Of a stretch of 46,694 nucleotides of DNA, positions 38,323-44,159 are shown piece by piece; position 1 is the first letter of the stretch; each line of letters starts with the position of its first letter. A program made the translations under genes and the position numbers. The notes under the pieces were generated by a model that was given only the letters and a program-made list of their open reading frames with translations, made no database searches and was not told the DNA's origin. Source of the stretch: Acidobacteriota bacterium (lineage in GTDB: Bacteria > Acidobacteriota > Terriglobia > UBA7540); NCBI GenBank assembly GCA_902812365.1, contig CADDZC010000026.1, forward strand, positions 1-46,694, read 5' to 3'.

Positions 38323-40389
38323 ATGGCATCAACACCCACATCGCCGCTCAAGCCGCCTAACTCGGGTACCGACTGGATCGTTCCGGTCCTCGGCGTGGCC
38401 ATGGTGTTTGTGATGCTCGTGCCTGTCCCTGCCGTGGCGCTCGACTTTCTTCTGGCCACCAGCATTACGGCCGCGGTACTGGTGCTGCTCACCTCGATGT
38501 ACATCCTGCGCCCGGTGCAGTTTTCGGTTTTTCCCTCTTTGCTTCTTCTCCTGACGTTGTTTCGCTTGTCCCTCAACCTGGCGAGCAGCCGTCGGATCCT
38601 GTTGCATGGAAACGAGGGTCCGGCGGCGGCAGGACACGTGATCGAGGCGTTTGGGCAGTTCGTGGTGGGCGGCAATTATGTGGTGGGCTTCGTCTTGTTT
38701 ATTGCTTTGATCGCTATCCAGTTTTTGGTCATCAACCACGGCGCGGTGCGCATTGCAGAAGTCACGGCACGGTTCACCCTGGATGCTCTGCCTGGGAAGC
38801 AGATGGCCATCGACGCCGATTTGGGTGCCGGGTTGCTCGACGAAAAGGAAGCGCGGCGCCGGCGGGAACAGATCGGCAAGGAAGCGGAATTTTACGGGGC
38901 GATGGATGGTGCGGCTCGGTTCAGCCAACGAGATGCGCTGGCCAGCATCCTGATTACCGCCATCAATATCATCGCAGGTTTCCTGATTGGAGTTTTCTAC
39001 CAGGGCGTACCTCTTCAGGAAGCGCTCCAGACATACACCATTCTCACCGTGGGCGATGGTCTGGTGACCATTATCCCGTCGCTTTTGGTTTCCGTGGCCG
39101 GAGGGATGGTGGCGACGCGCGCCTCAGCGGAGTCGAGCTTGGGAGTGGATCTGAGTCGCCAGTTGTTGCCTCGCAGTCGGCCGCTGTGGATCGCTTCCAG
39201 TGCGATGTTCGCCTTGGGCTTGATCCCCGGGTTTCCCAAGATTTCCTTTTTCGCGCTCTCCGGAGTGGCGGCTTGGCTCGCCTCGCGGGTGCGACCGGTT
39301 GCCGAGACTGAGGCGAAATTGCTGCCCGGCAAACCGGAGGAGAAGCCAGCCGCCGAGGCCGTCCCGGTGTTGCCGAAGCTCGATGACCTTAGCATTGAGG
39401 TGGGTTACGCCCTCGTGCCGCTCGTGGACCAAGCGCAGGGTGGACAGCTTTTGCAGCGGATTCGCGCGCTGCGCAAACATCTGGCCGGCCAGCTCGGCTT
39501 TATCGTGCCGCCCGTCCACATCACCGACAATCCGCAGTTGCGACCCCGCGAGTACGTCATCCGCCTGCGCGGGGTGGAAATCGCGCGCTGGGAGATGTAT
39601 CAAGATTGGCTGCTGGCGATCAGCTCCGAGGCGATAGCGCGACCGATTGAGGGTCGGGATACCAAAGAGCCGGCCTTCGGAGTCGACGCCAAATGGATTG
39701 CGCCCCATCAGCGCGAGCAGGCATTAGCGGCCGGCTATGCCGTGGTGGATCAAACCTCGGCCCTGGCGACTCACCTGGCCGAAGTCATTAAGCAGCACGC
39801 TTACGAGCTTTTGACTCGGCAGGAAACGAAGCGCCTGCTCGATTCGCTGGCGGAGAGCCAGCCCAAGCTGGTCGAAGAGCTGATACCCAAGGTGCTCAGT
39901 CTGGGTGAAGTACAGCGCGTGCTCCAGCAGCTTTTGCGCGAGCAAGTATCGATCCGCGACCTGACGACGATCTTGGAAACTTTGCTGGATACCGCGCCCA
40001 TGAACAAGAACCCGGTGATTCTTGTCGAAGCGGTGCGGCAGGCGTTGGGGCGCTCGCTCGTCCGGCCGCTGCTCAACGACGAAGGCAAGCTGACCGTCGT
40101 CACGCTGGATCCGCAATTGGAAGAGCAGATCTATCAGGCCTTTGATCCCCAGACCCAGGCGCCGCGCTCCCTGCACGCGCAAGCGTCGTTCCTGCGGCGG
40201 GTGCTCGACGGGTTAAGGGCTCTGATGGGGGAGCAGATGCCCATCGCCGCCCCGACCATTGTGTGCAGCTCCCCGGCGCGATTCCATCTGCGGCGGCTGG
40301 TCGAGCCGTTTTTACCCAAGTTGGTCGTGCTGTCGCCGGCGGAGATTCCGCCGACGGTACCCATCCAGTCGATGGGAATTGTCAGCTGA
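38323..40389 (+). CDS. flhA: Flagellar biosynthesis protein FlhA
   Basis: This 688-residue export-gate component has eight N-terminal membrane segments (about 18-310), with the conserved segments LLTLFRLSLNLASSRRIL and RFTLDALPGKQMAIDADLGA, YGAMDGAARFSQRDA and IITAINIIAGFLIGV, then TYTILTVGDGLVTIIPSLL. A large cytoplasmic domain follows (about 345-688): VPPVHITDNPQLRPREYVIR, VVDQTSALATHLAEVIKQHA and APTIVCSSPARFHLRRLVEP. It ends with the usual ELP-type tail (LSPAEIPPTVPIQSMGIV). The next gene, fliA, begins 13 bases later, without flhF or flhG between. Confidence 0.96.
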   Translation: MASTPTSPLKPPNSGTDWIVPVLGVAMVFVMLVPVPAVALDFLLATSITAAVLVLLTSMYILRPVQFSVFPSLLLLLTLFRLSLNLASSRRILLHGNEGPAAAGHVIEAFGQFVVGGNYVVGFVLFIALIAIQFLVINHGAVRIAEVTARFTLDALPGKQMAIDADLGAGLLDEKEARRRREQIGKEAEFYGAMDGAARFSQRDALASILITAINIIAGFLIGVFYQGVPLQEALQTYTILTVGDGLVTIIPSLLVSVAGGMVATRASAESSLGVDLSRQLLPRSRPLWIASSAMFALGLIPGFPKISFFALSGVAAWLASRVRPVAETEAKLLPGKPEEKPAAEAVPVLPKLDDLSIEVGYALVPLVDQAQGGQLLQRIRALRKHLAGQLGFIVPPVHITDNPQLRPREYVIRLRGVEIARWEMYQDWLLAISSEAIARPIEGRDTKEPAFGVDAKWIAPHQREQALAAGYAVVDQTSALATHLAEVIKQHAYELLTRQETKRLLDSLAESQPKLVEELIPKVLSLGEVQRVLQQLLREQVSIRDLTTILETLLDTAPMNKNPVILVEAVRQALGRSLVRPLLNDEGKLTVVTLDPQLEEQIYQAFDPQTQAPRSLHAQASFLRRVLDGLRALMGEQMPIAAPTIVCSSPARFHLRRLVEPFLPKLVVLSPAEIPPTVPIQSMGIVS

Positions 40390-40402
40390 GTCATTATATG
40401 AT

Positions 40403-41215
40403 ATGTACATGACCGTGCCCACTCACTCCAAAACCGCCCAGCGGAGCTACGCCGAGATTTCCAGGCTCGACCCTGAGGAACGCGAGCGCCTGTTGATGGA
40501 GAACCTGCCGCAAGTGAACTACATTGCGCGCCGCATCCATGACCGGTTGCCTTCCCACGTGCTGCTCGAGGACCTGGTTCACGCCGGCATTGTGGGATTG
40601 CTCGAAGCGATCCAGAACTTCGATCCCAGTCGCAACGTTAAGATCAAGACCTACGCCCGACTGCGCATCGAAGGTGCGATTTTGGACAGCCTCCGGGATC
40701 TGGATTGGGGACCCAGGGACCTGCGCAAGAAAGGACGGCAGGTGGAGCAGGCGATCCAGAGCCTGCAGGGAAAGCTAGGCCGGTCGCCGTCGGAGACGGA
40801 GTTGGCGGCGGAGCTACATCTCGACTTGAAGGCGCTTCAAGATTTGCTGGCGGAACTGCGAGGTTTGGACCTCGGGAGCCTCCAAGCGCTCACCCCGGAG
40901 GGCGGCAGCGAGGAGGACGTCTTCCGGTACCTCCCGAACGCTCCCCAGGAAGACCCGCTCTACCTCTGTTTGCAGTCGGAGCTGAAGGAATGCCTGGCGC
41001 GCGCCGTGAGCGAGCTTCCCGAGAAAGAACGTCAGGTCCTGGCGCTCTACTATCATGAGGAGCTGACGATGAAGGAGGTGGGGGCCGTGCTCGGGGTCGG
41101 CGAAGGTCGAATCTCGCAGATTCACTCGGCGGCCCTGCTGCGTTTGAGGTCGAGAATGCAGGAGATGCTGGCGGCACGCCCTCAACCGAAGACACTCCAA
41201 CCCAAGGATCCCTGA
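40403..41215 (+). CDS. fliA: Sigma factor FliA (sigma-28)
   Basis: This protein (about 270 residues) directs RNA polymerase to late flagellar genes. It has sigma region 2 (LLEDLVHAGIVGLLEAIQNF and the DPSRNVKIKTYARLRIEGAI segment), the FliA/WhiG marker DSLRDLDWGPRDLRKKGR, region 3 (LGRSPSETELAAELHLD) and region 4 (ELPEKERQVLALYYHEELTM, then VGAVLGVGEGRISQIHSAAL). Two ATGs (40403 and 40409) are possible; the ribosome site is weak. It overlaps nothing, but fliM begins one base after its stop. No -28-type promoter was recognised in the window. Confidence 0.93.
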   Translation: MYMTVPTHSKTAQRSYAEISRLDPEERERLLMENLPQVNYIARRIHDRLPSHVLLEDLVHAGIVGLLEAIQNFDPSRNVKIKTYARLRIEGAILDSLRDLDWGPRDLRKKGRQVEQAIQSLQGKLGRSPSETELAAELHLDLKALQDLLAELRGLDLGSLQALTPEGGSEEDVFRYLPNAPQEDPLYLCLQSELKECLARAVSELPEKERQVLALYYHEELTMKEVGAVLGVGEGRISQIHSAALLRLRSRMQEMLAARPQPKTLQPKDP

Positions 41216-41216
41216 G

Positions 41217-42212
41217 ATGCCGACGGAAAAAATACTCAACCAGGAAGAAATCGAAGCTTTGCTGCGGGCGGCACGCAACCGCCCGCTCAGCGAGGAAGAG
41301 AGCCAACGCCGGCCGCGACGGGTCTCCGCCTTCACCTTTGGCCAAGCCGGCCGCATCAGTCTCCAGCAGGTCGGCTCCATCAGTTTGCTTCATGACACCT
41401 TTGCTCGCAATGTCTCTCAGCGGTTGGGGGCGCATCTGCGGGTCCTGTTCGAGGTCAACCTCGTCTCGGTTGAACAACTCTCGTACTCGGAGTTCCTGCC
41501 GCGCGTCGCCGAGCGGGCCTATGTGGCCTCATTGAATCTGCAGCCGCTCGAAGCCACGGCGGTCTTCCAGCTCGATTTGGCGCTGGCTTTCCCGATCATT
41601 GACCTGCTGCTCGGCGGAGAGGGAAAGAGCCAACCCCTCAACCGTGACCTGACGGAAATCGAAGAACAAATTCTCGAAAGCATTGTGGCCATTATTTCCC
41701 AGGAGATGGAGACCGTCTGGGAGCCGCTGGTCAGCCTGAAGTTCCTTTTTGACCAACGGCAACAACAAGCTCAGGTGATCCGGCTGTTTCCATCCAACGA
41801 GAAAGTTTTGACTCTGAACTTTGAAATTCGAATGCCCGAGGTCCGTGGTTCCCTGGGTTTTGCCTTCCCGGCGGCCGTGTCGGGGGTCTTATTGCGCAAG
41901 ATCTCTGAGCAGTGGCTGACGAAGAAGCGGCACCTCGCCCAACACTACATCGAACAACGACGGCAGCGGCTTCTCGACTGCCGGTTTACGACGGAGATGA
42001 AACTTCCCGAAACCCCAGTTCGTGGCAGCGACTTGCTGGCCCTCGAGGTCGGCAAGACGCTCGTCCTTCAACATCGCACCTCCGACCCGGTCGTGATTTC
42101 CGTCGCCGATAAGAAAATGTTCGCTGCTTACCCGGTGCGAACCGCGAAGGCGCGCGGCGGGCTCATCCAGCGACGGCTGGCCGGCGCCGTCGCCGTCAAG
42201 GAGTTGCCATGA
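41217..42212 (+). CDS. fliM: Flagellar motor switch protein FliM
   Basis: This 331-residue C-ring protein has the N-terminal phospho-CheY-binding motif (ILNQEEIEALL), the middle CheC-like domain (HDTFARNVSQRLGAHLRVLF; FEVNLVSVEQLSYSEFLPRV; FPIIDLLLGGEGKS), and a C-terminal SpoA domain with VRGSDLLALEVGKTLVLQ. It is essential for switching and C-ring assembly. Its ATG lies one base after the fliA stop; its end overlaps the next gene by four bases. Confidence 0.94.
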   Translation: MPTEKILNQEEIEALLRAARNRPLSEEESQRRPRRVSAFTFGQAGRISLQQVGSISLLHDTFARNVSQRLGAHLRVLFEVNLVSVEQLSYSEFLPRVAERAYVASLNLQPLEATAVFQLDLALAFPIIDLLLGGEGKSQPLNRDLTEIEEQILESIVAIISQEMETVWEPLVSLKFLFDQRQQQAQVIRLFPSNEKVLTLNFEIRMPEVRGSLGFAFPAAVSGVLLRKISEQWLTKKRHLAQHYIEQRRQRLLDCRFTTEMKLPETPVRGSDLLALEVGKTLVLQHRTSDPVVISVADKKMFAAYPVRTAKARGGLIQRRLAGAVAVKELP

Positions 42213-43078
42213 ACGGAGCGGCTGGGCAACAGAAGGTGGGAGTCGAAACGTATCAGCAGGTGTGGATCGAGAGCGCCGCCGAGGTGCTCCGCGGTGTACT
42301 GGGTGGCGTGCTGAACGTTGAACGGCTTACGGCCGAGCAAACCCGAGCTGAAATTCAAACCATTGCCGCAAGCGGCGCCTGGCGCCGCTTCGCGGTCGGC
42401 AAGCCATTGGCGGGCGAGCACGCCGTGCTCACGCCCGTGACCGACGGGCTGAAGCTGGGTCAACTGCGGAGAGGAGAGTCAACGGCTGAGGAAGGGGCCT
42501 TCGACCCTCCGCGCCAGGAAGCTTTCACCCAGCTCATCGGACTGATGGCCGGTGCGGCGGCGGCGGCGCTCGGGGCGAAGCTGGGTGCCGCTGTCGAGAT
42601 CACGTTGGCGGGGTCCGGTCACCCCTCGTGGAGCCCGGCGGCCCCGTTCGGCTTTCGATTGAAAAGTCAGCGATTCGGGGAGATTTCTTTGTATTCCGTG
42701 CTGAGCGGTGAGCTCGCCGCCGCCCTGGAGGCGGCCGATGCGCCGGCGGAGGTGGCGATGCCCGGAAATCTCAAAGAACCCGAGGTCGCCTCCGCGCAAC
42801 GCGCTGAGGCCCGGACGACGAACATCGATCTGCTGAAAGATGTGGAACTGGCCGTGACGCTGCGCTTTGGCGAGCGGCAGGTTCTGCTTCGCGACGTTTT
42901 GGAGTTGGTTCCCGGTGCGGTGGTGGAACTGGATCAGCAAGTCGACGATCCGGTTGAGCTGTTAGTGGGCAAGAAGGTGATTGCTCGTGGAGAGGTGGTC
43001 GTCGTCGACGGGAACTACGGTTTGCGGGTGACGGAGATCGCCAGCCCAGCGGAGCGCATCGCTTCGCTGCGGAAGTAG
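42209..43078 (+). CDS. fliN: FliN-type motor switch protein, long second copy
   Basis: This 289-residue protein overlaps fliM by four bases. Its last 80 residues are a canonical SpoA domain: LLKDVELAVTLRFGERQVLL, then RDVLELVPGAVVELDQQVDD, PVELLVGKKVIARGEVVVVDG and YGLRVTEIASPAERI. The N-terminal 200 residues are not a plain FliN; two Gly/Ala-rich regions and the segment LAGSGHPSWSPAAPFGF suggest a FliY/CheC-like arrangement, though CheC active-site motifs are not obvious. It may be a FliN with an extra regulatory domain. Compare the short FliN at 34350. Confidence 0.85.
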   Translation: MNGAAGQQKVGVETYQQVWIESAAEVLRGVLGGVLNVERLTAEQTRAEIQTIAASGAWRRFAVGKPLAGEHAVLTPVTDGLKLGQLRRGESTAEEGAFDPPRQEAFTQLIGLMAGAAAAALGAKLGAAVEITLAGSGHPSWSPAAPFGFRLKSQRFGEISLYSVLSGELAAALEAADAPAEVAMPGNLKEPEVASAQRAEARTTNIDLLKDVELAVTLRFGERQVLLRDVLELVPGAVVELDQQVDDPVELLVGKKVIARGEVVVVDGNYGLRVTEIASPAERIASLRK

Positions 43079-43166: not shown

Positions 43167-44159
43167 ATGTCGCAGTTGGACAAGCTCTTCGATCAGCTCG
43201 GCTCCCCGTTCGCGGCTGCGCCTCCCTGCGCCAATGCGTTCTGTCCTCATCCAAGGCGTCGATGGCGTCTGGCGTTTTCGAAGACGGAGTCGCCGATTTC
43301 GCTGAATGGACAGACTTACTGCGGCTTTGACTGCTTCGAGCTGGGGGCCGTGACGGCCATCGCGAAATTGCTGCCGGCGGCGGCCCGCCGGAGCCTGCCC
43401 GGTCACCGGATTCCGCTCGGGTTGCTCATGCTTTCCCGGGGCCTCGTCAATCACGCGACCCTCAAGGAGGCCTTGCGGGCGCAGCGTGAGGCGGGCGCAG
43501 GCAAGGTGGGAGAGTGGCTGTGCCGGCTCGGGGCCGTGAACGAGGATCAGGTCACGGCCACCCTGGGAGTCCAGTGGGGATGCCCGGTTTTCCCGCTGGA
43601 AAGACATCCGGGCTTTGTTGAGTGCGCTCGGTTGGTGCCGCTCCCCATCGTCGAATCCGTCCGGATGATGGTGGTTCACTATCTGCCGGTCAGCCGCCAC
43701 CTCTATGTGGCCTTTTCGGACGGTGTGGATCACACGGCGTTGTATGCGCTCGAGCAGATCTTCCGGTGCCGCACCGAGCCGTCGCTGACTTCGGACTCGG
43801 CGTTCCGGCGCGCCTTGGACGCCCTTCGGCGGCTGCCTCCTGCTCCCGAACAGCGAGTGCCCGGCCTGCGCGACCCCTTGGAAATGGCGCGGCTCCTGCG
43901 ACGCCACGCCGCTGAGATGGAGGCGCAGGACGTCCGCATGGCGAGTTGCGCGAAATTTATTTGGGCACGACTGGAAAGCGCCATTCAGATCAAGAATCTG
44001 CTGTTCGAAGTGCCGTCCGGCTCGCCAAGCTTGTCTCCCGGTCTTCCGCACAACGCCGATGAGGCTGGCCACGCGGATCGCGGCTCGGCAGCGGATCGGC
44101 GAGCGCCGATCACGCCCGGCCCACCGCCAGATGCCGGCCACTCCTCCTGGCGGGGCTAA
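43167..44159 (+). CDS. MshEN-domain protein with CX4C/CX3C motif (GspE N-terminal-like), no ATPase domain
   Basis: This 330-residue protein starts at an ATG 88 bases after the second fliN. Residues 21-56 hold Cys21/Cys26 and Cys52/Cys56 in a zinc-ribbon-like arrangement. Residues 81-136 carry two aligned repeats of the MshEN type: PLGLLMLSRGLVNHATLKEA then KVGEWLCRLGAVNEDQVTAT; in both, G at position 2, G at position 9, L at 20 and Q at 23 match. The following residues (about 155-220; RHLYVAFSDGVDH) fit the rest of the T2SSE/PilB N-terminal module. The ATPase domain is absent. MshEN modules in MshE-like proteins bind c-di-GMP; the first repeat here has Pro rather than Arg before LG, so binding is not assured. 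The C-terminus is low-complexity. Confidence 0.75.
   Translation: MSQLDKLFDQLGSPFAAAPPCANAFCPHPRRRWRLAFSKTESPISLNGQTYCGFDCFELGAVTAIAKLLPAAARRSLPGHRIPLGLLMLSRGLVNHATLKEALRAQREAGAGKVGEWLCRLGAVNEDQVTATLGVQWGCPVFPLERHPGFVECARLVPLPIVESVRMMVVHYLPVSRHLYVAFSDGVDHTALYALEQIFRCRTEPSLTSDSAFRRALDALRRLPPAPEQRVPGLRDPLEMARLLRRHAAEMEAQDVRMASCAKFIWARLESAIQIKNLLFEVPSGSPSLSPGLPHNADEAGHADRGSAADRRAPITPGPPPDAGHSSWRG

Follow-up and report, generated by a model that had tools for sequence, protein, structure and literature searches.

A stand-alone MshEN-domain protein encoded after fliN is a candidate flagellar c-di-GMP receptor in Acidobacteriota

Most of what is known about the control of swimming by c-di-GMP comes from PilZ proteins and the Cle proteins of Caulobacter. 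In reviews, PilZ proteins are the route by which c-di-GMP acts on the flagellar motor, and MshEN is tied to pilus and secretion ATPases (PMC12564702, PMC10519070). The MshEN motif, RLGxx(LVI)(LVI)xxG(LVI)(LVI)xxxxLxxxLxxQ, is present twice (PMC5013675). The open-licence literature yielded no description of this family or of any MshEN protein encoded in a flagellar operon. The family described here was seen in Acidobacteriota genomes, and no claim is made of its absence from other phyla.

The window, a stretch of 46,694 nucleotides, contains an ORF on the forward strand at 43167-44159 that has an ATG start, encodes 330 amino acids, and begins 88 bp past the fliN stop (43078). The genes leading up to it are as follows:

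38323..40389, + strand: flhA, named from sequence; orthologues occur in most fetched operons
40259..41215, + strand: FliA-type sigma factor with sigma-70 regions 2, 3, and 4; the true start is probably near 40400
41217..42212, + strand: fliM (Pfam FliM and FliMN_C)
42209..43078, + strand: fliN, long form, with FliMN_C at residues 208-278 (Pfam; FliY/FliN NCBIfam)
43167..44159, + strand: ORF for the stand-alone MshEN protein, 330 amino acids, whose orthologues share this operon place; the last flagellar-operon gene here

The original prediction placed this gene directly after fliM and a long fliN, and both order and coordinates agree with the ORF and Pfam calls (E values at the window fliM and fliN of 2e-37 for FliM and 2.5e-22 for FliMN_C). 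Neither a canonical terminator nor a sigma-70 promoter was found in the interval between fliN and the MshEN gene. The window FliN (42209-43078) has 289 residues, and FliMN_C covers only 208-278, which leaves about 190 N-terminal residues unassigned.

The MshEN protein is made up of the following parts, for which conservation is given as the number of 62 family members:

43227..43334, + strand: CX4C-X25-CX3C cluster, residues 21-56, a predicted zinc-binding treble clef (Cys conservation)
43413..43484, + strand: MshEN motif I, residues 83-106, PLGLLMLSRGLVNHATLKEALRAQ (NF053729 match; G85 in 62/62, Q106 in 61/62)
43503..43574, + strand: MshEN motif II, residues 113-136, KVGEWLCRLGAVNEDQVTATLGVQ (NF053729 match; G115 in 61/62, Q136 in 62/62)
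43608..43832, + strand: MshEN C-terminal subdomain, residues 148-222 (Pfam PF05157, 20.5 bits; profile match to MshE 5htl)
43872..44021, + strand: conserved C-terminal region, residues 236-285, unassigned (W266 in 62/62, R268 in 59/62)

A search of the PDB with the single sequence matched MshE (5htl, 3e-7), PilF (6f8l, 6e-10), and PilB. With a profile of 38 members the E values reached 3e-28 for MshE 5htl and 2e-62 for PilF, so that the likeness to MshEN is far beyond chance. Positions 67-207 of this profile align to residues 7-145 of MshE 5htl (E = 3e-28), a stretch that spans both MshEN subdomains. The NCBIfam c-di-GMP_motif model NF053729 matched 38/38 family members; on the window protein it covers 83-136 (E = 1.1e-8) with 34.8 bits, slightly below the 38-bit cut-off. 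Both of the repeats that had been predicted at 81-136 are therefore present, with motif I starting at 83 rather than 81. The two motifs are separated by six residues, compared to five in MshE, and positions 2 and 17 of window motif II are V instead of L. The predicted remainder of the GspE/PilB N-domain was found at 148-222, where the Pfam MshEN score of 20.5 bits is below the 23.1 cut-off and the family profile matches MshE. The claim that the protein has no ATPase also held: no ATPase family, and thus no RecA-like domain with Walker A, matched the 330-residue protein at an E value of ≤1. The Pfam search gave no PilZ match in it either. By sequence, therefore, the window protein is confirmed as an MshEN-domain protein without an ATPase.

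The CX4C/CX3C N-terminus was found as claimed, with C21-X4-C26 and C52-X3-C56, and its Cys residues are kept in nearly the whole family (C21 in 60, C26 in 62, C52 in 61, and C56 in 62 of 62 members). The second half of the cluster resembles a treble-clef knuckle (YCSxxC), and the cluster probably binds zinc. The other end of the protein may be a remnant of the start of the PilB N2 domain, a reading that we treat as a lead: a full-profile hhalign alignment runs collinearly into the N2 domain of PilB/T2SSE (the ASDIHIEP region), while the C-terminus alone gives a probability of 4%, and chance ORFs rank above PilB in HMMER searches with it. AlphaFold models of two sequences had pLDDT values of 37 and 44, which are too poor to use; the order of helices and strands in them is MshEN-like.

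The predicted c-di-GMP site was assessed from the conservation of 13 positions equivalent to ligand contacts in MshE, selected from PMC5013675. Their mean entropy is 0.66 bits, compared to 2.18 bits for the other residues of 79-142 (P = 8e-7). The Gln pair, which makes the ribose/phosphate contacts in MshE, and both RLG-type Gly residues are kept in 98 to 100% of members, L99, L103, and L133 are kept in 90 to 98% (62 members), and residue 81, which aligns with R7 of MshE, is Arg in 53/62. The second Gly of a motif is lost in some family members. The first position varies more: it is Pro in 43/62 members in motif I, with R, K, L, or T otherwise, and R or K in 60/62 in motif II. The first repeat of the window protein reads PLG, not RLG, as had been observed, and the original prediction took this as a possible weakening of ligand binding. 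That suggestion did not survive comparison. P83 is invariant in the 41 aligned members of the window's class and also occurs in L122 and L123, with R, K, L, or T in other members, so that Pro is a class-wide lineage signature. Furthermore, the GSPII-C domain of Thermus PilF has MshE-like affinity for c-di-GMP though one of its motifs begins with Pro (P335), and PilF GSPII-B, which has Lys and Leu at the motif starts and no Arg, binds c-di-GMP at 6 nM (PMC11731258). Loss of binding is thus not to be expected from PLG, and we rejected it as a sign of such loss. Judged from these residues, the family protein probably binds c-di-GMP.

Conserved linkage to fliM and fliN in related genomes had been set beforehand as a check on the flagellar assignment. 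Two hundred relatives were searched, and 40 loci were fetched with approximately 10 kb on either side where the contig allowed. In 40/40 of these the MshEN gene is directly downstream of fliN. The commonest order is flhA, sigma factor, fliM, fliN, and the MshEN gene, often with flgF/flgG-type genes next. When 396 genomes of the phylum were searched with a profile, full-length members turned up in other families as well, and 19/21 further loci share the flagellar-operon context; the exceptions are L118 and L121, the latter of which starts at a contig end. One locus, L123, comes from an Acidobacteriota MAG and is the sole one from the single-protein contig scan. A tblastn search against plasmids gave no match. 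Altogether, 59/61 loci have a same-strand fliN within 2.5 kb upstream of the gene, 42 of these within 300 nt, so that the linkage is borne out across families.

Where fliN and the MshEN gene are farther apart in other families, the cases read have HDOD and DUF2802-like genes in the interval; at L104:8114-9529, for example, an HDOD protein is accompanied by one that is DUF2802/DUF6115-like. DUF2802-like proteins also follow fliN in several clusters without the MshEN gene (e.g., L131 and L143). In two flagellar systems without it, an HDOD-domain protein, assigned by Pfam match in L139 (7590-8300) and by likeness in L140 (7636-8334), fills the slot after fliN. At L034, L053, L066, and L067 fliN and the MshEN gene remain together in an operon in which no fliM was found; in G134, G137, and G149 the FliM match is located elsewhere in the genome. 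At L118:9449-10300, a full-length homologue is found between SecDF and TatD-like genes, outside the flagellar operon of a FliM-positive genome.

The presence of the gene was compared with that of FliM, counting as carriers those genomes with a full-length member at an E value of ≤3e-52 with the broader profile, which leaves a clear gap to PilB-type matches (from 2e-37). The full-length gene is found in 56/396 phylum genomes and FliM in 101/396, and 56/56 carriers are among the latter. None of the 295 genomes without a FliM match carries the gene (Fisher's exact test, 1.6e-40, a descriptive value, as the genomes are related and the carrier counts are therefore not independent). About 45% of FliM-positive genomes (45/101) do not have the gene, e.g., those of family f35, nor does the second flagellar system of G191 (L140), which indicates that the protein is accessory and not a core part of the C ring. 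Where it is present, its pairwise identity tracks that of FlhA (r = 0.91), FliM (r = 0.90), FliA (r = 0.85), and FliN (r = 0.66).

The window genome contains three GGDEF genes, two of them with an intact GGEEF/GGDEF motif, along with an EAL match, five PilZ matches, and flagellins. Approximately 5 kb separates a GGDEF gene with an intact GGDEF motif from a flagellin gene on its contig (G000:C30:7795-13638). No YcgR-type PilZNR/PilZN domain was found in this genome. PilZNR occurs in 12/396 genomes of the sample, none of them from the window's class, and PilZN occurs in 1/200 relatives, one without a FliM match. PilZNR and the MshEN protein occur together in four genomes of family f40 (G302, G375, G429, and G443), and the two are therefore not strict alternatives throughout the phylum.

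On the basis of these results, a role of the MshEN protein in flagellar function is very likely. The explanation that we favor, with a confidence somewhat above even, is that it is a dedicated flagellar c-di-GMP receptor, with the FliN/FliM C ring as its likeliest target. A single c-di-GMP would be bound in the MshEN_N bundle, between the two 24-residue motifs, and binding would shift MshEN_C together with the conserved region near the C-terminus. Docking could take place through the zinc-ribbon-like N-terminus and through the C-terminus, and high c-di-GMP may in this way alter switching, torque, or C-ring assembly via FliN/FliM. We favor the C ring since the gene stays behind fliN also in the operons in which no fliM was found (L034, L053, L066, and L067), and from gene position we give it roughly an even chance of being the direct target. 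Taken alone, a neighborhood that includes FlhA, a sigma factor, FliM, FliN, and rod genes is not enough to point to the C ring in particular. The proposed c-di-GMP input to the flagellar switch thus stands as far as MshEN identity, a constrained predicted ligand site, and fliM/fliN linkage are concerned, while its assignment to the switch is a proposal from gene position. More tentatively, and with confidence below even, we propose that a PilB-like MshEN module with a zinc ribbon and without an ATPase is a C-ring adaptor, forms a non-PilZ route at the level of the phylum, and replaces YcgR in the window's class.

The main rival explanation keeps c-di-GMP binding and moves the target, so that the protein would govern flagellar assembly or expression, e.g., via the FliA-type sigma factor or the FlhA/FlhB export gate. 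Both the sigma factor gene and flhA share the operon with the MshEN gene, the predicted zinc cluster might be a contact site for other proteins or for nucleic acid, and a c-di-GMP-dependent anti-sigma factor of a flagellar-clade sigma factor is known, RsiG/WhiG (PMC8325347). However, the gene comes after fliN and not after the sigma gene, and the MshEN proteins known so far act on their own machine (pilus, type II secretion system, or glycosyltransferase), and we consider this explanation rather unlikely. A still smaller probability is given to a structural or assembly adaptor that retains the MshEN fold without using c-di-GMP, as in XpsE (2D27), where the fold is retained and binding is lost (PMC5013675). 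The change of Arg to Pro in motif I, the spacer longer by one residue, and the loss of the second motif Gly in some members would fit such a protein, but constraint is much stronger at the contact positions than in the remaining subdomain, the Gln pair is 98 to 100% kept, and PilF GSPII-C binds with Pro at the same place and GSPII-B without any Arg. Finally, the gene might share only an operon history with the flagellum, riding along for coexpression while its product serves type IV pili or surface attachment. Homology to PilB and the L118 homologue in the SecDF/TatD locus of a FliM-positive genome are in keeping with this, yet 0/295 FliM-less genomes carry the gene, though many have PilB-like proteins, and the linkage holds across families with different operon layouts, which makes this explanation very improbable.

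If the protein is the C-ring-directed receptor that we favor, a different class of c-di-GMP receptor acts on the flagellum in a poorly studied phylum, and a domain of pilus motors has been reused in a rotary motor. In flagellated species of the phylum, the gene would also offer a target for single-gene deletion. Among known systems, MshE, PilB, and PilF (GSPII) have in common with the window family both 24-residue motifs, both subdomains, and the key Gly, Leu, and Gln positions; the family differs from them in having no ATPase, its own CX4C/CX3C N-terminus and C-terminal region, a six-residue spacer, and a flagellar rather than a pilus locus. NfrB and other MshEN glycosyltransferases likewise carry MshEN outside secretion ATPases (NCBIfam PRK11234 matches), whereas the window family has no glycosyltransferase part and is found in a flagellar operon. 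The PilZ brakes YcgR, MotI, and FlgZ would share its role as c-di-GMP receptors acting on the flagellar motor, but their domain is unrelated. In RsiG-WhiG, a flagellar-clade sigma factor is controlled by c-di-GMP (PMC8325347) through a coiled coil, RsiG, for which no sequence relation is expected. Cle proteins of Caulobacter likewise interact with the flagellar switch in a c-di-GMP-dependent manner (PMC5677366), but they combine a CheY fold with an Arg-rich tail in place of MshEN.
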